This document shows, piece by piece, positions 20,462 through 61,620 of a stretch of 64,000 nt of DNA. The stretch covers positions 310,001-374,000 of the forward strand of contig NC_014136.1 of NCBI RefSeq assembly GCF_000092505.1, read 5' to 3'. Numbering within the stretch: position 1 is the stretch's first letter; each line of letters starts with the position of its first letter. The DNA comes from Leuconostoc kimchii IMSNU 11154 (GTDB taxonomy: Bacteria > Bacillota > Bacilli > Lactobacillales > Lactobacillaceae). The notes beneath the pieces are model-generated. The model did not search any database. It saw only the letters and a program-made list of their open reading frames with translations, and was not told where the DNA came from. The translations under genes and the position numbers were made by a program.

Positions 20462-20773
20462 ATGCAGACAGACTTTTTCGGGGAAAAACTTAAAGCAGTA
20501 AGAAAATCTAAAAATCTGACACAATTAGAATTATCAAAACGTTTAGAGGTAAGCAAAGGCACTATTTCAGCCTATGAACAAGGCCTATCATATCCGTCAC
20601 TTGAAACACTAGTTAAAATTTGTGAAATTTTAAATACTTCTTCTGATTACCTACTAAGCCTATCGGATAATTTAACGTTTAAAATGGGTGGATTAACGAG
20701 TGAACAGATGAATAGTGTTTTGCAATTTATTGCCACAATCGAACGGGCTAACAGAATACTTGAGGAAAATTAG
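20462..20773 (+). CDS. XRE-family transcriptional regulator
   Basis: 103 residues. N-terminal HTH (~7-62) with KNLTQLELSKRLEVSKGTIS and LETLVKICEILNTSSDYLL, then a short helical tail. Ribosome binding site AGGAAAGG about 10 bases upstream. It is chromosomal, in the opposite direction to its neighbours, and converges with guaA in the pre-integration chromosome. Confidence 0.85.
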   Translation: MQTDFFGEKLKAVRKSKNLTQLELSKRLEVSKGTISAYEQGLSYPSLETLVKICEILNTSSDYLLSLSDNLTFKMGGLTSEQMNSVLQFIATIERANRILEEN

Positions 20774-21493: not shown

Positions 21494-22153
21494 CTATTTT
21501 CCAAATTCTTTATAGGGAAAATGTTGTCTTGTGCCAATTCTTGGACGTATTTTATCAAGAAAAGGCTCATAATTGTATTCGAACTTACATTGAATGGCGT
21601 GTGCAATGAAATCAGCAACCTGAATTCCCTCGAATTTATGTGATTTAACAGATTTAACCTCGATCCCTAATGTGTATTTTTTCATTTCAAACCAAGCTAA
21701 GTGTTTTATATATTCATCAATGTTAAATCCGTTTTTCACGGCTTGATTTCTTTCATCGATATAAAATTCTAACCTATCACCATCGCCTAAGTGTTTTATA
21801 ACTGGTTTAACTATGTATGAGACCAAATAATTATACAAAATATTCTGATTTTCAAGTAACTTGCTGTCAATTTTGGTTAAGTCAACGGTTATATAACGAA
21901 CAACAAAATAAGAATTTACTATTTTACGAATAACGTATTCTCTAATTACTATGTCACTATTTGCTGCCTTTACTTCGCCAAGACTTGTAGCAATGCTTGG
22001 AAAATTTCGTTTTACTTGACCAGTAATTCTTCTCATATTTCTAATTAATTTTTGATGGTTGGATTCACTTACTTCAATGGCCGCAATTGTGAAATAGCGC
22101 CCATCACTCCCAAAATTGCCTGATTCATCAATATATACAAATTTTTTCGACAT
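21494..22153 (-). CDS. DUF3800 protein, prophage accessory gene
   Basis: 219 residues. The N-terminal FVYIDESGNFG, the central YIDERNQ and the C-terminal IQVADFIAHAI are the three acidic motifs of DUF3800, a family with an RNase H-like fold found in phages and in defence neighbourhoods; its activity is unknown. I start at ATG 22153; a GTG at 22165 is also possible. It lies beyond the late terminator with its own promoter, at the very end of the prophage, the usual site of lysogenic conversion genes. Confidence 0.82.
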   Translation of the reverse strand: MSKKFVYIDESGNFGSDGRYFTIAAIEVSESNHQKLIRNMRRITGQVKRNFPSIATSLGEVKAANSDIVIREYVIRKIVNSYFVVRYITVDLTKIDSKLLENQNILYNYLVSYIVKPVIKHLGDGDRLEFYIDERNQAVKNGFNIDEYIKHLAWFEMKKYTLGIEVKSVKSHKFEGIQVADFIAHAIQCKFEYNYEPFLDKIRPRIGTRQHFPYKEFGK

Positions 22154-22180
22154 TTTTATTTTCACTTTATTTTTTTAATC

Positions 22181-48572: not shown

Positions 48573-49637
48573 CTAAGCAAATACCAACTTAACTTTATCG
48601 ACTTCTCTATCTTCGATTTCTTTTTGCAGATGACCATAAATCTTATTGATCATATCCGTGTTTGAATGCCCAACCTGCTTAGCAATGTAATTTATTTGAA
48701 TGCCGTTTGAGATTAGTGTTGAGATGTAGCTGTGGCGCAATTTGTGTACTGAAATCGCGCCAATGCCTCTCAATTTCAAATATTGGTGCAACTTCTCGTT
48801 GACTGTTGAATTAAAGATATGCTTATCTTTCTCATGAAGTAGTGGTAAGTCGCTATCGCTAAGATTATTTTTTTCTGAATACTCATGATATTCGAATAAT
48901 AGTTTTTCGATTGTTGGATCAATATTTACGGTGCGAATGCTGGACAGATTTTTTGTCGGCATAAAGCCGCCTGTTCTGGTCTTGTAATTCCACGTCTTAT
49001 TAATTGACAATTTGCCATCAGAAACATCAGATATTTGAATTCCCATAACCTCACTAATACGTGCCCCTGTATGAATTGCAACCGCTAGTATCATCAAGTA
49101 GGTTTGCTCAGATATTGGACCATTTTTAAATATTGGTTCCTTGTTTAATACTTCTTCTAGTTTGAAATCCAAATAATTTTTAAATCCCACGAACTCCTTC
49201 ATATCTAGCCATTTCTTTTCGTTCTTTTTGTCGGAACGTTTTTCAGGACTCCAACTGTTTTCAACTGAGTGAATGACAATGTTTGTCTTACTAAATCCAG
49301 TGATGAAACCGTCATCAACCGCATAATTCAGTGATGAATATATCAAGTTTTTAAAATCAGTTACTGTTTGATGTTGTCTTGTCTTTCCGTACTCATCTAA
49401 CATAAACTGCAATACTTGCCGATTATTCTCTAAATCAGTTAACTTCAACTCGTGTAAATTATTTTCCAACCACTTTTTTGTAAGTTGGTACTTGCAATAA
49501 GTAACTTTAGTCACGAAATCCTTTTTGTAATTTACTGCAAACCATTCAAAATATTCCCAAAATTTCATCTTGCTAACAGATGATACTATTTTCTGTTTTA
49601 AACTTTCAACTTCAACATCAGATGTCAAATATTCCAT
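48573..49637 (-). CDS. second tyrosine recombinase, inside the lytic operon
   Basis: 354 residues. All catalytic features are visible: Arg in TGARISEVMG, Lys/Arg strand PTKNLSSIRTVNI, HKLRHSYIS, GHSNTDMINKIYGHL with the nucleophile Tyr. N-terminal SAM-like core-binding part ~25-130. It is transcribed with early genes, overlaps the methylase-like gene by 20 bases, and lies 11 kb from the true integrase. Its role is unknown: it might act on phage DNA, resolve dimers, or be a captured integrase. Confidence 0.88.
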   Translation of the reverse strand: MEYLTSDVEVESLKQKIVSSVSKMKFWEYFEWFAVNYKKDFVTKVTYCKYQLTKKWLENNLHELKLTDLENNRQVLQFMLDEYGKTRQHQTVTDFKNLIYSSLNYAVDDGFITGFSKTNIVIHSVENSWSPEKRSDKKNEKKWLDMKEFVGFKNYLDFKLEEVLNKEPIFKNGPISEQTYLMILAVAIHTGARISEVMGIQISDVSDGKLSINKTWNYKTRTGGFMPTKNLSSIRTVNIDPTIEKLLFEYHEYSEKNNLSDSDLPLLHEKDKHIFNSTVNEKLHQYLKLRGIGAISVHKLRHSYISTLISNGIQINYIAKQVGHSNTDMINKIYGHLQKEIEDREVDKVKLVFA

Positions 49638-50283
49638 ATGTGTTTAACTCACTTTCTATATGCGCTTCGTATTTCTCGCCTTCCCATTTTTGAATACCGA
49701 AATATTTTTTGACTTCATCAGAATAGGGCATGATATTCACGCTTGAAAAACCCAAAAAGTCATCATTATCATTTTGAATAAAGAAAACGCCACGCGCTTC
49801 TCTGGTCAACACATCACCGTGTACCACGGCAGCGTTTATTCCGCGTATTGCTAGGTTAAAAATCAAGAATGGTAGCGCCCTGTCTGACAATTCTTCCGCG
49901 AAGAACAGGTAATTAGACGGCTTGTAATCAAACGGACTAGTAGCCATTTGGTCTTGATGCCATTTTCTGATTAGCATGCCACCTGTTCCAGCTGTTGGTT
50001 CGTAGTAACTGTTACTAGTGCCGACAATCTTTGACAATATATCTGATATTGAATCAGGCGTAAAATCTTGTTTGTTTTTCTTCCGTTCCGCCTGTTCCTC
50101 TTCGTAATATTCATGAAATCCGTCATATGATAAATCTCTAGTATATTCGTCTAAATATCTCATCATTGCCGTTTCACGTTTTTCTTTGTCGAGAACGATC
50201 TTCATCATTTCATCTGGTAGTTTAAACGACTCTTTAACTCCAAATATCTCGTGTATTGTTTTACTGGCTGTTTTAATCATCAT
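49618..50283 (-). CDS. N6-adenine methylase-like protein, catalytic motif missing
   Basis: 221 residues. SAM-binding motif I YEPTAGTGGMLIRKW at ~93-107 with QDFTPDSISDIL before it, as in HsdM-type methylases; NLAIRGINAAVVHGDVL follows. The NPPY/F motif IV is not found; the nearest is SVNIMPYSDE. Either a divergent phage family or an inactive protein. It could protect against host restriction only if active. Confidence 0.75.
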   Translation of the reverse strand: MMIKTASKTIHEIFGVKESFKLPDEMMKIVLDKEKRETAMMRYLDEYTRDLSYDGFHEYYEEEQAERKKNKQDFTPDSISDILSKIVGTSNSYYEPTAGTGGMLIRKWHQDQMATSPFDYKPSNYLFFAEELSDRALPFLIFNLAIRGINAAVVHGDVLTREARGVFFIQNDNDDFLGFSSVNIMPYSDEVKKYFGIQKWEGEKYEAHIESELNTYGIFDI

Positions 50284-53880: not shown

Positions 53881-54027
53881 CTGTTCAATTTCTTCAAAGC
53901 CCCAGTCGCCACCAAAGCATTTCAATGCCCTGACGCGTGCATCTATCCAACTAAATCTATCGGACGTTTTCACGTCGCGTTCGACTATTTCGCCGTTTTC
54001 CGTGCGCACTGCTTGATATTTTGTCAT
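53878..54027 (-). CDS. 49-residue phage protein
   Basis: Starts MTKYQAVRTENGEIVERDVK and ends DWGFEEIEQ, with a 4-base overlap with the stop of the helicase loader gene and GGAGG upstream. No family recognised. Confidence 0.6.
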   Translation of the reverse strand: MTKYQAVRTENGEIVERDVKTSDRFSWIDARVRALKCFGGDWGFEEIEQ

Positions 54028-54797
54028 CTGATATCCTCCAATCCAGCAAACAACAACACATTTTCTGTTTTCTTAGTCACTAATCGACTAATTAACTTGT
54101 CATTGTACATGCCCTCTAATTCGCTCCTGACGTTATTTGACGTCACGATGGTACTCTTAGTCCTTTTATCGTTTTCGTCCACCTCATAGCGCGCATCAGC
54201 CACTCTCATGTAGAACTGCTGTAAACGTTCGGTTGCTTGCTTGCCATTTCCAGACATGCCTACTTCTGAACCAAAGTCATCAAGTATCAAAACGTCAACC
54301 TCTTGCATCGACTTTGCGATACGATCTAATTTAGCTCTGGCACCCAAATCACTAAATTCATACATGACTGATTCACGTAACGCCACAGTACTAACAAACA
54401 TCACTGTCTTGTGGCTGTATCTTTCCAATGCATTGACTAGCGCTAAGGTGATGGCTGTTTTACCAGTACCGGCATTGCCAAGAATGAAGATGTTGAAGTT
54501 ATCAGACCTTAGTCGTTTGAAAATATCCGTTGCTTGATTTTTGATTTTTGTAGCCAGCTTCACGTTTGTTTGTCGTTCTGGTAACCACCTCTCAAATGTG
54601 AATGTTGCCTTTCGGTTCGATGGCCATAGACTATCGCGGTCATATACCTTACGTTTCAATGCGAGATAATCAGCTGCTGCTTTTTCTTCTGCTTGTTTGT
54701 CGATGTCCGCTAACTTAGTTGCTAGTTCTTCCTCGCTAAGTAACGTGCCACCGTGTGATTTAATCCATTCAGTTGCAAAGTCTGATACGTTATTCAT
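54024..54797 (-). CDS. DnaC/DnaI-type helicase loader
   Basis: 257 residues, AAA+ ATPase. Walker A GNAGTGKTA at 107-115, Walker B VDVLILDDFG, and a C-terminal box VTSNNVRSELEGM. Loads the host DnaB helicase on the phage origin. Follows the replisome organizer, its normal partner. Confidence 0.9.
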   Translation of the reverse strand: MNNVSDFATEWIKSHGGTLLSEEELATKLADIDKQAEEKAAADYLALKRKVYDRDSLWPSNRKATFTFERWLPERQTNVKLATKIKNQATDIFKRLRSDNFNIFILGNAGTGKTAITLALVNALERYSHKTVMFVSTVALRESVMYEFSDLGARAKLDRIAKSMQEVDVLILDDFGSEVGMSGNGKQATERLQQFYMRVADARYEVDENDKRTKSTIVTSNNVRSELEGMYNDKLISRLVTKKTENVLLFAGLEDIR

Positions 54798-54800
54798 AAT

Positions 54801-55592
54801 CTATTCCTTGTAGTATTTACCCAATGCTGCTCGCATGCCTTCTTCCTGTGTCATGTTGCGCATATCAGTATTATTTGGTTTGACATTGTTCTCGTTGAGA
54901 TAACCCTCAAACTTATTGCTAAATAATGTTTCTGGTCGTAAGAACTTGTTCATTTTTTGATCATTAACCCATTGACTACTCTTAACATCAATCACTGCTT
55001 TGAAATCATCTAAGCTAAACCCCTCGTTAAAACGTGCTTTAATCAGTGATTTTGTTTTTGAACCGCTACTTCGGTATTTATTTCTAGTCTTTTTATTCAA
55101 GTAATCAACAATTTCTTTGTAGGGCACGTGGTCGGGTTCGTCAGAACCAGACAATATATCTTTACTATCCTTACCTAACCTATCCTTACCTAACCTATCC
55201 TGTGCGGACATTTGGTTGTCGTCTGGTTGCGAAATGGTTGTCATTTTGTTTCTAATGAAGTAAGACCCATCTACGTCAACGTTTAAAATACTTTTTTCAG
55301 AACGGTAAATTGTTGGTTTCATTCTGTCTTTTCGTATTTTATTGTTCAAATTCCAATCTTTTACAACGCTGACACCGTTCTCAAACATGATGATAAAACC
55401 CTTAGCTTTTAATAGTGATAAATCATCGCTGTTTGCACCATAAGCTCGGCTTAACATTTTTGCATTACCGATAAACCCCTCATCATCTGCTTCCATTCCT
55501 AAGTGAAAGTACAGTAGTTGACTCGACATTGGCATATCTACAAATGTGTCACTTGTTGTAATTTCTTTGCTAAACATTCTTCTTTGCGCCAT
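54801..55592 (-). CDS. phage replisome organizer
   Basis: 263 residues. N-terminal winged helix (~1-110): MAQRRMFSKEITTSDTFVDM and LLYFHLGMEADDEGF, phage_rep_org_N type. The middle has a repeated DRLGKDRLGKD, coded by DNA iterons. C-terminal ~100 residues: VPYKEIVDYLNKKTRNKYR and FLRPETLFSNKFEGYL, the DnaD-like C-terminal part. Binds the origin and recruits the loader. Confidence 0.92.
   Translation of the reverse strand: MAQRRMFSKEITTSDTFVDMPMSSQLLYFHLGMEADDEGFIGNAKMLSRAYGANSDDLSLLKAKGFIIMFENGVSVVKDWNLNNKIRKDRMKPTIYRSEKSILNVDVDGSYFIRNKMTTISQPDDNQMSAQDRLGKDRLGKDSKDILSGSDEPDHVPYKEIVDYLNKKTRNKYRSSGSKTKSLIKARFNEGFSLDDFKAVIDVKSSQWVNDQKMNKFLRPETLFSNKFEGYLNENNVKPNNTDMRNMTQEEGMRAALGKYYKE
55165..55200. 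repeat. iterons inside the replisome organizer gene, candidate origin
   Basis: CTATCCTTACCTAAC twice in a row (55165-55179, 55180-55194), followed by a partial third copy CTATCC (55195-55200). Phages of this type usually have their origin inside this gene. Confidence 0.6.
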
Positions 55593-55594
55593 GA

Positions 55595-55801
55595 CTACCC
55601 CTCTTCCTTACTTCTAAATTCATCTAAGCTGACATCTAATGCATCAGCTATTTTTTCCATTGTGTTGAAATCTGTACCAGCACTTTCATCATTTTTAATT
55701 CGATAAACTGTACTCATATCAACACCTGAATTTTTGCCTAGCCAATACCATGACTTGCCTTTTTCTTGTAACAATTTATTCAATTTTTCATTTATTTTCA
55801 T
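55595..55801 (-). CDS. XRE-type small regulator
   Basis: 68 residues if started at MKINEKLN (55801); a TTG at 55807 is better spaced from AAAGGA and would add two residues. HTH: SWYWLGKNSGVDMSTVYRI and MEKIADALDVSLDEF. First gene of the replication transcript after the plus-strand accessory gene; it diverges from that gene and might control it. Confidence 0.75.
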   Translation of the reverse strand: MKINEKLNKLLQEKGKSWYWLGKNSGVDMSTVYRIKNDESAGTDFNTMEKIADALDVSLDEFRSKEEG

Positions 55802-55854
55802 GTACAAATACTGTCCTTTCAGTACTAGTTTTGATCTTATTGTTCTTTTATTCT

Positions 55855-55862
55855 GGTATGAT
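55855..55862 (+). promoter_or_regulatory. extended -10 of the plus-strand accessory gene
   Basis: TGGTATGAT (TATGAT at 55857-55862) has the TG of an extended -10; no -35 at good distance. It lies about 36 bases before the start codon of the next gene and would allow expression in the lysogen. Confidence 0.4.
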
Positions 55863-55897
55863 TGAGTTATCAAATAATTTTAAAAAAGGTGCATTTA

Positions 55898-56446
55898 ATG
55901 ACTAAAAAAATTTTTTTCGTTTCGCCCATTGGATCAGAAGGTTCTGCAGAAAGACGCACCTCTGATTTTGTTTTGAAATCTATTATAAAACCAGTGTCTG
56001 AGAGATTAGATTATGAAACACTGCGTTCAGATTTAATTAACAGTACAAATACTATTGATCAAGACATTATTAACCAATTAAATAGCGCTGATTTGGTTAT
56101 TGCTGACGTTACTGGTACTAACGCAAATGTCATGTTTGAATTAGGTTATCGGTTTTCATTAAAATCACCGTTAATCGTAATCGCTCAGTCAGTTGCTGAA
56201 CTGCCGTTCGACATACATAATTTGCGTGTAATGATTTACGAAAAAGAGTTACCAGACCTTGAAAAAATGCAATCACAACTAGAACAAATGATTAAAGTTT
56301 TTGAAAACTTTAAGCCTGAATCAGAATCTAAAAATTTGGGTGAAGAAATGGGAGAGAAAATGGCTCTCGACGCTATTTCAAGTGGTGATTTTTCTAAAAT
56401 AAAGGAATTTGCAGAATTAGCAAAGACTTTTGGTTTGGATAAATAA
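55898..56446 (+). CDS. nucleoside 2-deoxyribosyltransferase-fold / TIR-like accessory protein
   Basis: 182 residues from ATG 55898 (AAAGGTG upstream). KIFFVSPIGSEGSAERRTSD at the N-terminus, then NSTNTIDQDIINQLNSADLV, IADVTGTNANVMFELGYRFS and LIVIAQ. This is the NDT/TIR-like flavodoxin-type fold with the family's ADLVIAD-T-NPNV-ELG series. Such domains bind or cut nucleotides and are often parts of defence or stress systems. A helical tail (~130-182) may mediate assembly. It is the only plus-strand gene inside the lytic half, a classic cargo position. Confidence 0.78.
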   Translation: MTKKIFFVSPIGSEGSAERRTSDFVLKSIIKPVSERLDYETLRSDLINSTNTIDQDIINQLNSADLVIADVTGTNANVMFELGYRFSLKSPLIVIAQSVAELPFDIHNLRVMIYEKELPDLEKMQSQLEQMIKVFENFKPESESKNLGEEMGEKMALDAISSGDFSKIKEFAELAKTFGLDK

Positions 56447-56548
56447 TTATTTTTTTGAATTCAACCCATCTACAAAACCTAATAAGAAGTTGACTTGTGC
56501 CTTTAACTCGTTAATTTCTTTTTTTAATTCCATAATTTCTTTATTCAT
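56447..56548 (-). CDS. 33-residue coiled-coil peptide
   Basis: MNKEIMELKKEINELKAQVN then FLLGFVDGLNSKK, with GGAGG upstream. Its stop touches the stop of the plus-strand gene. Small helical phage peptide of unknown use. Confidence 0.5.
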   Translation of the reverse strand: MNKEIMELKKEINELKAQVNFLLGFVDGLNSKK

Positions 56549-56552
56549 TTTC

Positions 56553-56726
56553 CTAATCCTCCACTACATTGTTAATTAAGAACGCTGCTTCTTTTTCTGT
56601 GTAACCATTCTTGATAAGTTCTTCGTAATCGTGTTGCGCTTCTCGCTCATTAAACCGGTTCTCATCCCATCTGAACAGTGCGATGCCTGCTGAGATGATG
56701 ATGAACCATGTGATTGCTGTTGCCAT
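56553..56726 (-). CDS. 57-residue membrane-anchored protein
   Basis: One N-terminal membrane segment (AITWFIIISAGIALF) and a charged tail (YEELIKNGYTEKEAAFLI). AGGAGG upstream. Unknown function. Confidence 0.6.
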   Translation of the reverse strand: MATAITWFIIISAGIALFRWDENRFNEREAQHDYEELIKNGYTEKEAAFLINNVVED

Positions 56727-56736
56727 TTGTTACCTC

Positions 56737-56997
56737 CTAAATTTCACCATCATATGTTTTTCCAACGGATACGGCTGCTTTGAACTTCTCCCAAGACAGC
56801 AACGGAATAATCCCGCCACGGTCAAATGGAATAAATGGTGCGTCTGGTCTACCCAATAGATACTTACGCAATGTTGCGATATTTGTTCGTTCGTACAACT
56901 CTAGTTGGTTCATTGTTAATGAAGGTGGCCAACCAATTTCGTGATAAAGTCGTAACTCTTCAATTCTTTCTGGTGTTAATTGATATGCTGTTGCCAT
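56737..56997 (-). CDS. hypothetical phage early protein
   Basis: 86 residues. LTMNQLELYERTNIATLRKYL reads as an HTH-like segment (shown as NQLELYERTNIATLRKYL), so DNA binding is possible. Strong site AAGGAGAAATT upstream. Confidence 0.6.
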   Translation of the reverse strand: MATAYQLTPERIEELRLYHEIGWPPSLTMNQLELYERTNIATLRKYLLGRPDAPFIPFDRGGIIPLLSWEKFKAAVSVGKTYDGEI

Positions 56998-57006
56998 AAT
57001 TTCTCC

Positions 57007-57057
57007 TTAATTGTTTAAAAACCGATCGCGACACTCGATAAAATCAATCATGCTCAT
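57007..57057 (-). CDS. possible 16-residue peptide
   Basis: MSMIDFIECRDRFLNN, overlapping the antirepressor stop by 4 bases. Coupling is the only support. Confidence 0.25.
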   Translation of the reverse strand: MSMIDFIECRDRFLNN

Positions 57058-57797
57058 GCCGCGCCTCCTTTTTCTTGCAAAAACTTGTTCACGAAGTAAA
57101 TTTGACCTTTTCCAGTAACCTTAGGCGTACTAGTTGTACGTACTGAACCATCAGGGTTATTAACTGTTCGTGTCTTTGTTTCCATAATTTCTAAGTCCAT
57201 ACTCTTTTGAGTTGGCAAGTTATGTTGCTCTCCTCGTACGCCTAAATATTCATGTTCGCGTAACCAAGTGAACAAACGATTTTGACCAATGTTTACGCCA
57301 TTTTGTCGCAGTATTTTCGCTAACTGTCCAATCAGAATACTGTTGTTGCTCGTGTCAACTGCATCAGCAAATAGTGCTTTAGGTTTCATTTCAGCAATGA
57401 TTTGGTCTTTCTGATCAAGTAATAACTGTGACGCTTTCAAGCCAAGTGCCATTTGATAAGATGGATCTTGTGAAAGTTGCTTATATCGCTTTTCAACTTG
57501 AATGAAATAATCACGAATTTGTTGACTTTTTTCAGTTTTTGACATCATAGCCACGTTCTTGGCCATGTCGACCGTGAGTGAATAATCTTGAATATTTTGA
57601 AGCTTGTCAGGGTTAGCTTTGTTATAGGGCGTACCTGTAAGTACACCCTTAAAATCAACTCCGTCAACGTACATTTCTTGGTATTGTTCAAACCAAGCGC
57701 TAAAACGTTTCTTAACACCAAGTTCTTTATATAATTCCCGAGCACTTACTCGTGCCTCGCCTTGTTCGTTTTGGTTAATCTTGATAATTTCGTTCAT
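57054..57797 (-). CDS. phage antirepressor (AntA + KilA-C)
   Basis: 247 residues. N-terminal AntA/AntB: EARVSARELYKELGVKKRFS and YSLTVDMAKNVAMMSKTEK. C-terminal KilAC: LAKILRQNGVNIGQNRLFTW and KGQIYFVNKFLQE. Acts against the repressor or otherwise controls the switch; sits at the beginning of the lytic transcript. Confidence 0.88.
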   Translation of the reverse strand: MNEIIKINQNEQGEARVSARELYKELGVKKRFSAWFEQYQEMYVDGVDFKGVLTGTPYNKANPDKLQNIQDYSLTVDMAKNVAMMSKTEKSQQIRDYFIQVEKRYKQLSQDPSYQMALGLKASQLLLDQKDQIIAEMKPKALFADAVDTSNNSILIGQLAKILRQNGVNIGQNRLFTWLREHEYLGVRGEQHNLPTQKSMDLEIMETKTRTVNNPDGSVRTTSTPKVTGKGQIYFVNKFLQEKGGAA

Positions 57798-57887: not shown

Positions 57888-58148
57888 ATGAATGAATTTG
57901 AAAATGTTCATTTAGAACATGAGTACTCACTAGAATCTGGAACATTACACGTTGATACACCAGGTTCTAAACATTTCAAAGATATTTTTATTGAAGAGAC
58001 CCCATCTCTATTAAGAAAAATATCTTTGTACGATAACGGTTTGATTATTTATTTTGAGCAGACATCTTCAAAGATTGTCTTACGTACCAATCGCCCACTC
58101 TACCAAATCGGCGACGGTAAGTTTTCAATTGAAGACCCTGAGAAGTAA
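57888..58148 (+). CDS. small plus-strand phage protein
   Basis: 86 residues from ATG 57888 with a very good AAAGGAG site. No domain recognised; acidic, beta-rich (YSLESGTLHVDTPGSKHF, GLIIYFEQTSSKIVLR). A plus-strand terminator follows within 25 bases. It is convergent with, and overlaps by 104 bases, the minus-strand frame 58045-58227. Confidence 0.6.
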   Translation: MNEFENVHLEHEYSLESGTLHVDTPGSKHFKDIFIEETPSLLRKISLYDNGLIIYFEQTSSKIVLRTNRPLYQIGDGKFSIEDPEK

Positions 58149-58239: not shown

Positions 58240-58476
58240 CTATGTTAGTTGTTCAGTTTTCTGAACTTTAACTGTAAAAAAATAAGCCGCCATTTCGTTA
58301 TCGCTAATATCAAGAACTTTGCAGATATTCAATATTTCGTCTTGACGAAACGGAACACCTTTTAATTTATTGGTTAGCGAAGCCGCTGAAATTCCAATCT
58401 CTCTGGATAGAGAGCTTTGATTGAATCCCTTCGACTTAATTCGTCCATACAGACGCTCATAATCAAACTTTATCAT
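58240..58476 (-). CDS. Cro-like regulator
   Basis: 78 residues. HTH: KGFNQSSLSREIGISAASLT and LNICKVLDISDNEM. Diverges from the repressor gene and is the first gene under the lytic promoter; strong AAAGGAGGTG site. One operator copy lies in its last codons. Confidence 0.85.
   Translation of the reverse strand: MIKFDYERLYGRIKSKGFNQSSLSREIGISAASLTNKLKGVPFRQDEILNICKVLDISDNEMAAYFFTVKVQKTEQLT
58251..58266. promoter_or_regulatory. operator copy in the cro 3' end
   Basis: GTTCAGTTTTCTGAAC, a perfect palindrome identical to the one at 58498-58513. A site here could block transcription or let a repressor loop between both places. Confidence 0.7.
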
Positions 58477-58645: not shown

Positions 58646-59338
58646 ATGGAAAGTTTTAATTCTAGACTTAAAATAGCTATGGATCACAAAAACATAAAAC
58701 CTGCAGATTTAGCAAAAATGACGGGAATTGGAAAGTCTTCTATAAGCCAATGGCTTGCTGGAAAATATTCTGCAAAGCAAGATAACATATTTGTTATCGC
58801 TAAAACATTAAATATTAATCCAAGCTGGTTAATTGGTGCTGACGTCCCAATGAATGACGAGTCTATATTAGATAAAATATATAATGTGGCTAACAAAATC
58901 AGCAAGGAACGTCAAGAAAAAGTTTACAAATACACAAAGCAACAGTACAATGAGCAAAATAAAATTGTTCAGATGCCCATAAAACGAGAAGTTGTTATAT
59001 CAGGAGCCGTTTCTGCTGGTACTGGCGAGTATTTGGGAGACGGTCATGAAGAAACAGTCGCTTATGAAGGCGAAATACCACCACACGACTTTGCAGTCAT
59101 CGTAAACGGCGATTCGATGGAACCTACTTTTGCAGACAAGCAAATCATATTTGTCGATAAGACTAAAGAAGTGTTCAACGGTCAGTTCATCATTGCTGAT
59201 TATGATCAACAAGCCTACGTCAAAAAATTCATGAGTGATGAAAACGGCGCACGCCTTGTGTCGTTAAATCCAAAATACAATGATATGCCGTTAGATGAAA
59301 ATCATGAATTATCAGTATTCGGGGTCGTCGTTCTATAA
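58646..59338 (+). CDS. CI-like repressor with S24 peptidase domain
   Basis: 230 residues. N-terminal HTH (~5-62): IKPADLAKMTGIGKSSISQW. C-terminal LexA-like part: cleavage region VSAGTGEYLG, catalytic Ser in VNGDSMEPT, Lys in QAYVKKF. So lysis should be inducible by RecA-dependent self-cleavage (family knowledge). RBS AAGGAG. Confidence 0.92.
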   Translation: MESFNSRLKIAMDHKNIKPADLAKMTGIGKSSISQWLAGKYSAKQDNIFVIAKTLNINPSWLIGADVPMNDESILDKIYNVANKISKERQEKVYKYTKQQYNEQNKIVQMPIKREVVISGAVSAGTGEYLGDGHEETVAYEGEIPPHDFAVIVNGDSMEPTFADKQIIFVDKTKEVFNGQFIIADYDQQAYVKKFMSDENGARLVSLNPKYNDMPLDENHELSVFGVVVL

Positions 59339-60430: not shown

Positions 60431-60470
60431 TAAAAAAGCACACCCAACCGGCAAAAGTTAGAGGTGTGCT
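60431..60470 (-). terminator. minus-strand terminator in the lysogeny region
   Basis: AGCACACC (60437-60444) pairs with GGTGTGCT (60463-60470); on the minus strand T6 follows. No minus-strand gene lies here, so it would catch transcripts coming from guaA. Confidence 0.6.
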
Positions 60471-60492
60471 AAAGACAAAAATAAAAACGCAC

Positions 60493-60533
60493 GGGGCGTT
60501 CTTGATAATTATATCAGATATAAGCCCCTTTTT
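60493..60533 (+). terminator. plus-strand terminator before integrase
   Basis: GGGGC (60493-60497) with GCCCC (60524-60528), an inner TTGATAATTATATCA-type stem, then TTTTT. Separates the membrane protein transcript from int; its T run leads into the int ribosome binding site. Confidence 0.6.
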
Positions 60534-60549
60534 AAAGGAGGCTTTTTAT

Positions 60550-61620
60550 ATGGCGAGTTTTGAAAAACGTGGCAAAAAATGGCGGGCTGTTGTATCCGTT
60601 ACCGGTAACAAAGGCATTAGAAAGAAAATATCGAAAACTTTCGATACCAAAAAAGAAGCCTCTGCTTGGTCTATTGAACAAGAAAACAAGTCAAACAACG
60701 GCTATGATGTGTTCAGTAGTAAAATACTTTATAGTGATTACTATATAAAGTGGGTAGAAACGTATAAGCGCCCTATCATCAGAGAATCTACGTACATAAG
60801 ATATAAATCATGGATAAAAAATGTACAGAATTTGTTTGCTGGTATCCGTTTAGATCAACTAACTAATTATCGGATTCAACAATTAATCAATCAATACGGA
60901 GAAACCCATACTTTGAAATCCACACAAGGCTTTCTGGTTTCTGTCAGAAGTTCCTTGAAAGATGCCTTATTAGATGGCTATATAGATAAAGATATATTTA
61001 GCAGAGTTAGAGCAAACAGTCACTTTGAAACACATAAATCAGAAAACTATCTCAGCGCTGAAGAATTTGAGAGATTGCAGACTTTTTTGTATGAAAATCA
61101 AAATCAAATGGTTCAGAATTCAAAATTGCTAATGGTATTAATTGCTTTGGAAACTGGTGCAAGACTAGGTGAAATATTCGCGTTACGAACATCAGATATA
61201 CAACCAAATAAAATCATCATTGATGAATCATATTCAGCATCTTCTCATGAATATACCGCTCCGAAAACCAATTCATCTATTCGGTCAGTCAGCATATCAC
61301 AAAAATTAAATAGCGCAATAGAAAATTATATAAAGAACACCGCAAAAACTGACTTACTTTTTAAGCCGCAATATAGAGCTAATGTGGGTCACACTCTTGA
61401 AACAATTCTAAAACATGCTGGTGTACATCAAATTCGCTTTCATGGTCTGAGGCACTCACACGTTTCTTATCTATTGCATAAAGGTGTAGATATAGCTTAC
61501 ATATCAAAACGAGTTGGCCATTCTAATACGACTATCACGCTCCAAGTATATGCACATCTACTAAAAGAAAAAGAACAAGCGCAAGATGCACTCGTTCTCG
61601 ATATACTTTCTAACCATTAA
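60550..61620 (+). CDS. int: tyrosine integrase
   Basis: 356 residues from ATG 60550, after AAAGGAGG; the frame is open to 60466 but without a site. Arm-binding N-terminus FEKRGKKWRAVVSVTGNKG, core-binding part ~65-165, catalytic part with TGARLGEIFALR, NSSIRSVSI, HGLRHSHVS and GHSNTTITLQVYAHL (Tyr). Adjacent to the attachment site in guaA, so this is the enzyme that inserted the prophage. Confidence 0.95.
   Translation: MASFEKRGKKWRAVVSVTGNKGIRKKISKTFDTKKEASAWSIEQENKSNNGYDVFSSKILYSDYYIKWVETYKRPIIRESTYIRYKSWIKNVQNLFAGIRLDQLTNYRIQQLINQYGETHTLKSTQGFLVSVRSSLKDALLDGYIDKDIFSRVRANSHFETHKSENYLSAEEFERLQTFLYENQNQMVQNSKLLMVLIALETGARLGEIFALRTSDIQPNKIIIDESYSASSHEYTAPKTNSSIRSVSISQKLNSAIENYIKNTAKTDLLFKPQYRANVGHTLETILKHAGVHQIRFHGLRHSHVSYLLHKGVDIAYISKRVGHSNTTITLQVYAHLLKEKEQAQDALVLDILSNH

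Follow-up and report, generated by a model that had tools for sequence, protein, structure and literature searches.

An antisense NDT/TIR-like gene and its small convergent partner form an exchangeable candidate immune cassette in a prophage of Leuconostoc kimchii

A 64,000-nucleotide stretch of the Leuconostoc kimchii IMSNU 11154 genome (RefSeq assembly GCF_000092505.1, contig NC_014136.1, positions 310,001 to 374,000 of the forward strand; here the window, in whose numbering positions are given) contains a Lactobacillales prophage, and within it a gene that runs counter to the early lytic operon. The product of this gene, 182 amino acids (aa) long, has a fold like that of nucleoside 2-deoxyribosyltransferases (NDT) and TIR domains. 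Tail to tail with its stop codon lies a 33-aa gene of the lytic operon, which the initial annotation of this DNA had missed, and the two genes are exchanged together between prophages. We propose that the larger gene encodes the effector in an immune cassette of the prophage, organised as a noncontiguous operon, in which the small partner, made in the lytic phase, would prevent self-targeting; we regard this proposal as evenly balanced between right and wrong. The parts of the cassette are as follows, the ribosome-binding sites and the promoter being read from the sequence.

55898..56446, plus strand: NDT/TIR-like effector candidate; catalytic domain at about residues 1-138, helical tail 147-177 weakly predicted
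55854..55862, plus strand: extended -10 promoter match TGGTATGAT of the effector
55886..55889, plus strand: ribosome-binding site AAGG of the effector
56447..56548, minus strand: small partner gene, 33 aa, with the motif VNFLLGFVDGL, in the lytic operon, tail to tail with the effector stop codon
56558..56562, minus strand: ribosome-binding site GGAGG of the small partner, before its ATG
55863..56535, no strand assigned: exchangeable cassette, with no similar DNA in the second prophage of this genome

The gene at 55898-56446 starts with an ATG, and the initial annotation was right to see in it a real gene set against the lytic operon. Its assignment of an NDT/TIR-like fold with a catalytic glutamate is supported by structural comparison and by glutamate E81 of the FELG motif, which is invariant in both alignments of relatives (A1, of 41 rows, and A2); R43, V67, D70, N77, R85, P103 and D105 are also invariant in A1. 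The Rossmann-like fold and the ELG-motif glutamate place the protein in the NDT/TIR structural superfamily, and a profile match over residues 2-162 (E 5.1e-49) makes it a member of PHROG 3634. Against PF05014 (Nuc_deoxyrib_tr) it scored 24.3 bits (E 3.6e-5), below the curated cut-off of 28.8 bits and hence outside that family as defined, which was matched by 32 of the 41 A1 members at E <= 0.01. DUF4062 gave no match to the effector at E <= 1 and was not among the families matched by the A1 members at E <= 0.01. The closest named relative, from Leuconostoc mesenteroides, is 88% identical. On our best reading, we infer that the effector is a defence enzyme that would cleave nucleotides or nicotinamide adenine dinucleotide (NAD).

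Relatives of the effector were found in 56 phage records and, at E <= 1e-10, in 33 of 395 genomes of the order; the best 80 of 323 relatives on viral contigs and the best 80 of at least 542 on genome contigs were kept. In 29 of 33 dereplicated phage or viral loci whose relative is 150-262 aa long, the script-called genes on both sides lay on the other strand, as against only 11 of 79 relatives longer than 262 aa. An extended -10 sequence was present within 110 bases upstream in 27 of the same 33 loci, where shuffled sequences gave 3.9, and the second prophage has TGGTATAAT at the position of the effector's extended -10. The initial annotation had given the gene its own start signals, a claim borne out by the promoter match on the lysogeny strand and the AAGG before the ATG; our sigma-70 scan required a -35 box too, so this site is not in its output. 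In Staphylococcus aureus phage SA13 the relative stands directly before the DnaD-like and IstB-like genes, with no XRE gene in between as in the window, and in other phages it stands beside cro or an antirepressor.

The small partner was recovered by a profile trained on 30 small convergent proteins from which the window's own was excluded, so that the test is independent of its letters; it scored E 4.5e-8 among 25,001 open reading frames (ORFs) from all loci. At E <= 1e-7, 73 of the 74 profile matches were convergent with the 3' end of an effector relative, and the remaining one (L059) stands behind a shortened effector frame. Many of these small genes share the motif form [ILV]x[YF][LYI]xG, and they lie between 7 bases away from the effector end and 65 bases into it. 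A convergent small gene with this motif accompanied 28 of 58 dereplicated relatives (150-262 aa) and 1 of 445 control genes, namely different genes from these loci that are 100 aa or longer; the pattern was drawn from those loci, which makes the motif count descriptive. Regardless of the motif, 40 of the 58 relatives and 52 of the 445 controls had a small convergent ORF with a ribosome site. The profile search and the control genes together led us to reject the 33-aa gene as a chance ORF or annotation artefact. We also examined whether the motif might be a by-product of overlap with the effector gene, and rejected this for the window (no overlap), SA13 (7 nucleotides), L089 (11 nucleotides) and L210 (a 7-nucleotide gap), where the motif lies outside the overlap; for the other Streptococcus-type loci, which overlap by 29-65 nucleotides, it is not excluded. 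Outside the overlap, eight Streptococcus-type partners had 9, 8 and 18 variable sites at codon positions 1, 2 and 3, a modest bias in the direction expected of a translated frame. A single kind of partner for all relatives was rejected: type 1 occurs at 28 of the 58, and two other kinds, sorted by eye, occur at 5 and 4. On the tree of catalytic domains type 1 requires 5 changes, as against 19.6 in shuffles, a clustering that near-copies favour. Effector and partner are convergent on opposite strands and do not share the one operon of a type II toxin-antitoxin pair.

Upstream of the effector, two further features occupy the divergent region.

55595..55801, minus strand: small XRE/Cro-like protein, resident in the replication operon, divergent from the effector
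55809..55824, no strand assigned: palindrome TACTGtcctttCAGTA between the divergent genes, a possible XRE operator, of which the second prophage has an imperfect copy

The initial annotation had taken the XRE protein for the effector's own regulator. This was not borne out, because XRE homologues stand directly before the DnaD gene in loci without the effector (L096, 54% identity; L102, 93%; L106, 52%; L108, 49%), and the XRE gene remains with the resident replication operon when the cargo changes. Even so, both promoters of the shared divergent region may respond to the XRE protein; for control specific to the effector, the 33-aa partner is the better candidate.

The same genome carries a second prophage (locus L249, G000:C6:1880500-1887500, identical to L102 over 6,577 bases), whose counterparts of the 57-aa lytic gene and the XRE gene flanking the slot are 95% and 93% identical to those of the window at the protein level. 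Its slot holds another antisense cargo with another small convergent gene.

L102 4216-4629, minus strand: second-prophage cargo, 137 aa
L102 4074-4235, plus strand: second-prophage small convergent gene, 53 aa

Searches of this slot against PADLOC (E <= 0.01) and against Pfam (family cut-offs) gave no match. The DNA flanking the cassette is 86% (55465-55862) and 94% (56536-56737) identical to that of the second prophage; similarity stops at 55862, where the -10 box ends, and resumes at 56536; in the small gene this boundary lies after ATGAATAAAGAAA, at codon 5. From these boundaries it follows that the slot itself includes the promoter match and the beginning of the small gene, and that the effector and the body of its partner are swapped together. 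A comparable exchange separates S. aureus phages SA13 and 80alpha, whose slot-flanking genes are 96% and 76% identical: SA13 has an NDT-like gene with a 39-aa partner, and 80alpha has Abi_alpha (PF14337, 8.8e-45; PADLOC PDC-S47, 3.8e-43) with a different 38-aa ORF.

The 80alpha ORF (L013 8408-8524, plus strand) is unannotated and shares 8 bases with the 3' end of gp19, the Abi_alpha gene. Its last 17 residues occur without change in 45 records of Staphylococcus phages; the other part of the query gave no match, possibly owing to the low-complexity filter.

Two experimentally tested systems, the closest precedents, suggest how such a pair might work. According to extracts of the reports on Tha/Ith of 80alpha (PMC11087260) and Tai/Ati of phi80 (PMC11364771), an immune gene is made in lysogeny and a counter-immune gene on the opposite strand in the lytic cycle. 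We read the window pair as an effector with an off-switch because both systems follow this logic, and the partner probably turns the effector off at prophage induction. In the lysogen, with the lytic operon silent, the effector's own extended -10 promoter would drive its transcription; an incoming phage would trigger the enzyme, and cleavage of NAD or a nucleotide with the aid of E81 would bring the infection to a halt. On induction of the prophage, transcription of the lytic operon would pass through the cassette from the opposite side, lowering effector expression by head-on or antisense transcription, and would also yield the 33-aa partner, which would bind the effector and hold it off. Effector and partner would pass between phages as a single cassette. 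A legend in PMC11087260 describes a clear transcription switch of 80alpha orf11 and orf19 upon induction; the legend once names orf17 for orf19, which we took to be the Abi_alpha gene gp19.

The likeness to Tha/Ith lies in a prophage immune gene paired with a small antisense gene of the lytic phase, which overlap in Tha/Ith; for the window gene, expression in the lysogen is our supposition. In the extracted account Tha, a HEPN RNase, is encoded in the cI operon, with Ith running against it in the lysogeny module (PMC11087260), whereas the window effector has an NDT/TIR-like fold, which places it outside the HEPN-based Tha/Ith family, and lies in the lytic half beside a different, 33-aa protein. 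With Tai/Ati the pair shares its geometry, that of a candidate immune gene opposite an operon that holds its candidate partner, as in a noncontiguous operon; the comparison covers the arrangement, and Tai/Ati, as the extract describes it, belongs to the late Q operon of a Gram-negative phage and acts by inhibiting tail assembly (PMC11364771).

Several results count against the proposed reading. Structural matches of the effector to DNPH1, NDT and TIR proteins were tied in Z score, so that the fold names no substrate, and a search of viral structure models returned NDT-, cytidine monophosphate (CMP)-hydrolase- and TIR-named matches alike, leaving structure neutral between NDT and TIR. In an alignment read by eye, I57 of the effector stands at the position of the DNPH1 aspartate D80. 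When Lactobacillaceae and Lactococcus were removed from the training set, the profile found the window partner only at E 0.0029 and that of L015 at 1.2, and a PHROGs search with the 33-aa protein gave no significant match (best 0.014). Eighteen of the 58 relatives lack a small convergent ORF that has a ribosome site, among them L002, which nests within a partner-bearing clade, and 21 are without a partner of any of the three kinds; the partner tails of L132, L134, L211 and L213 are without the motif, and those of L037 and L038 are shortened. In most Streptococcus loci, furthermore, the motif falls within the effector overlap, where its sequence is not independent.

The effector might instead be a phage enzyme of nucleotide salvage or modification, like the metabolic enzymes DNPH1/Rcl and the NDTs, with which it shares the fold and the ELG glutamate, and have no part in defence. 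We consider this improbable: as antisense prophage cargo the gene opposes the replication genes, lies on the lysogeny strand and has its own promoter match, the same slot of 80alpha holds Abi_alpha, and the invariant N77 and R85 are not shared by DNPH1 in the alignment, R43 and the PFD motif lying outside the aligned part.

Rather less unlikely is that the effector is correctly identified and is controlled by transcription alone, with the small ORF a resident lytic gene or a by-product. The antisense position in 29 of the 33 loci and the 21 relatives without any of the three partner kinds agree with this, as does the minor role that Pith-1 transcription was found to have beside the protein in Tha/Ith, according to the extract (PMC11087260). 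Conservation of the motif where the genes do not overlap, as in the window, and in distant phages argues against this, and so does the joint change of cargo and small gene seen both in the second prophage and when SA13 is compared with 80alpha; the tails of the small proteins also track the cargo in those Streptococcus loci that were opened.

The idea that defence-like genes stand at comparable positions elsewhere held good, with Abi_alpha, DUF4145-like and HExxH genes found there. The first part of the small protein is almost invariant among Streptococcus phages, and SM1 gp13 was matched by 61 records at E <= 0.1. Seven of nine such records that were opened had a convergent antisense gene of 227-243 aa at its 3' end; five of these cargos are DUF4145-like and two have HExxH (by eye), and the tails of the small proteins differ accordingly. 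The term DUF4145-like is a chained call, since SM1 gp14 and the L244 cargo match PF13643 at 5.5e-4 and 0.0026, neither of which reaches the cut-off, and since the L238 cargo, with no Pfam match of its own, was counted through 49% identity to SM1 gp14. DUF4145 belongs to the HEPN superfamily, according to an extract of PMC3710099. SM1 pairs an effector-family gene with gp10, and gp14 with gp13; its gp7, also antisense, exceeds the cut-off for DUF4145, matches PADLOC PD-T7-4 at 1.5e-15 and stands beside a small neighbour, gp6, of another kind. In EJ-1 the cargo continues through the small gene, whose end is altered, and the depositors annotated an extended -10 promoter for the antisense gene.

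Two Streptococcus loci (L239 1501-2474 and L245 1501-2478) have an antisense HExxH gene, recognised by eye, with a convergent partner of 80-89 aa that carries the constant first part; the L239 cargo has a weak PADLOC capP match (0.0093).

The constant first part also bears on a further alternative, in which the small protein, as an early product of a related superinfecting phage, would activate or aim the resident effector and so be the trigger that it senses. Its occurrence in many Streptococcus phages would suit such a pathogen marker, and the lysogen itself would presumably make little lytic transcript. An activator of this kind would, however, make the prophage kill its own induction, and in both precedents the lytic-phase partner inhibits, as far as the extracts go (PMC11087260, PMC11364771). 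In phiARI0031 the small gene is present and no cargo was found, a situation like that of phage phi7206 with its retained ith-2, which its authors, in the extract, read as immune evasion (PMC11087260). We consider activation improbable.

Keeping to the off-switch reading, we suggest, with somewhat less than even confidence, that temperate phages of Bacillota have a general exchangeable antisense immune slot in the early lytic region. Various effectors (NDT/TIR-like, Abi_alpha, DUF4145-like, HExxH) would stand there behind a resident promoter, each with a cognate small off-switch made up of a resident first part and a tail that goes with the effector; immunity and self-protection would thus be swapped in one recombination step.

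In the titles and abstract openings of the papers listed from the open PubMed Central literature, no description of the effector/partner pair stood out. PHROG 3634, the family of the effector, and PHROGs 20017, 19309, 6029 and 4488, which hold the small proteins of SM1, SA13, Javan37 and IPP61, are all listed as of unknown function. DUF4062 'Swarozyc' and other TIR-like NADases combine a fold of the TIR/NDT superfamily with a catalytic glutamate in antiphage defence, according to an extract of a preprint (PMC13174449), and the effector shares the superfamily fold and the glutamate; 'Swarozyc' belongs to another Pfam family, and that extract mentions no antisense partner for it.

Around the effector the minus-strand lytic genes follow in the order antirepressor, an 86-aa gene, a 57-aa gene, the 33-aa partner, XRE, DnaD-like and IstB/DnaC-like, and the CI-like repressor and the integrase are on the same strand as the effector.

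54024..54797, minus strand: IstB/DnaC-like ATPase (PF01695, 9.9e-8), helicase loader by position
54801..55592, minus strand: DnaD-like replication protein, one flank of the slot
56553..56726, minus strand: 57-aa lytic gene, the other flank of the slot
57054..57797, minus strand: antirepressor (AntA/KilAC)
58240..58476, minus strand: Cro-like repressor (DUF739)
58646..59338, plus strand: CI-like repressor (HTH_3 and Peptidase_S24)
60466..61620, plus strand: phage integrase (PF00589, 3.2e-23)

Further genes were noted elsewhere in the window. A second lysogeny-strand gene of 86 aa lies between antirepressor and cro (57888-58148, plus strand); a PHROG search with its protein gave no match at E <= 0.1, and the second prophage has a different 75-aa gene on the same strand at a similar place (L102 2249-2476); this is possibly another exchangeable slot. 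Inside the lytic region, at 48573-50283 (minus strand), a short N6-methylase-like gene (PF02384, 1.9e-8, 221 aa) is immediately followed by a further tyrosine-recombinase gene (PF00589, 3.6e-19, 354 aa), a pair that is possibly the remnant of another element. Past the lysin end of the prophage lie a DUF3800 gene (21494-22165, minus strand, 1.2e-15) and an XRE-like gene recognised by eye (20462-20773, plus strand), which are possible accessory genes.

If the proposed reading is true, the cassette would add a new effector class and a new family of small proteins to the few known prophage immune and counter-immune pairs, and more such pairs could be sought through genes that oppose the lytic operon and have a tiny convergent gene at the 3' end. 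The two prophages of this one L. kimchii genome, with similar promoters and flanks and different cassettes, would then offer a natural test of the matching between effector and partner.
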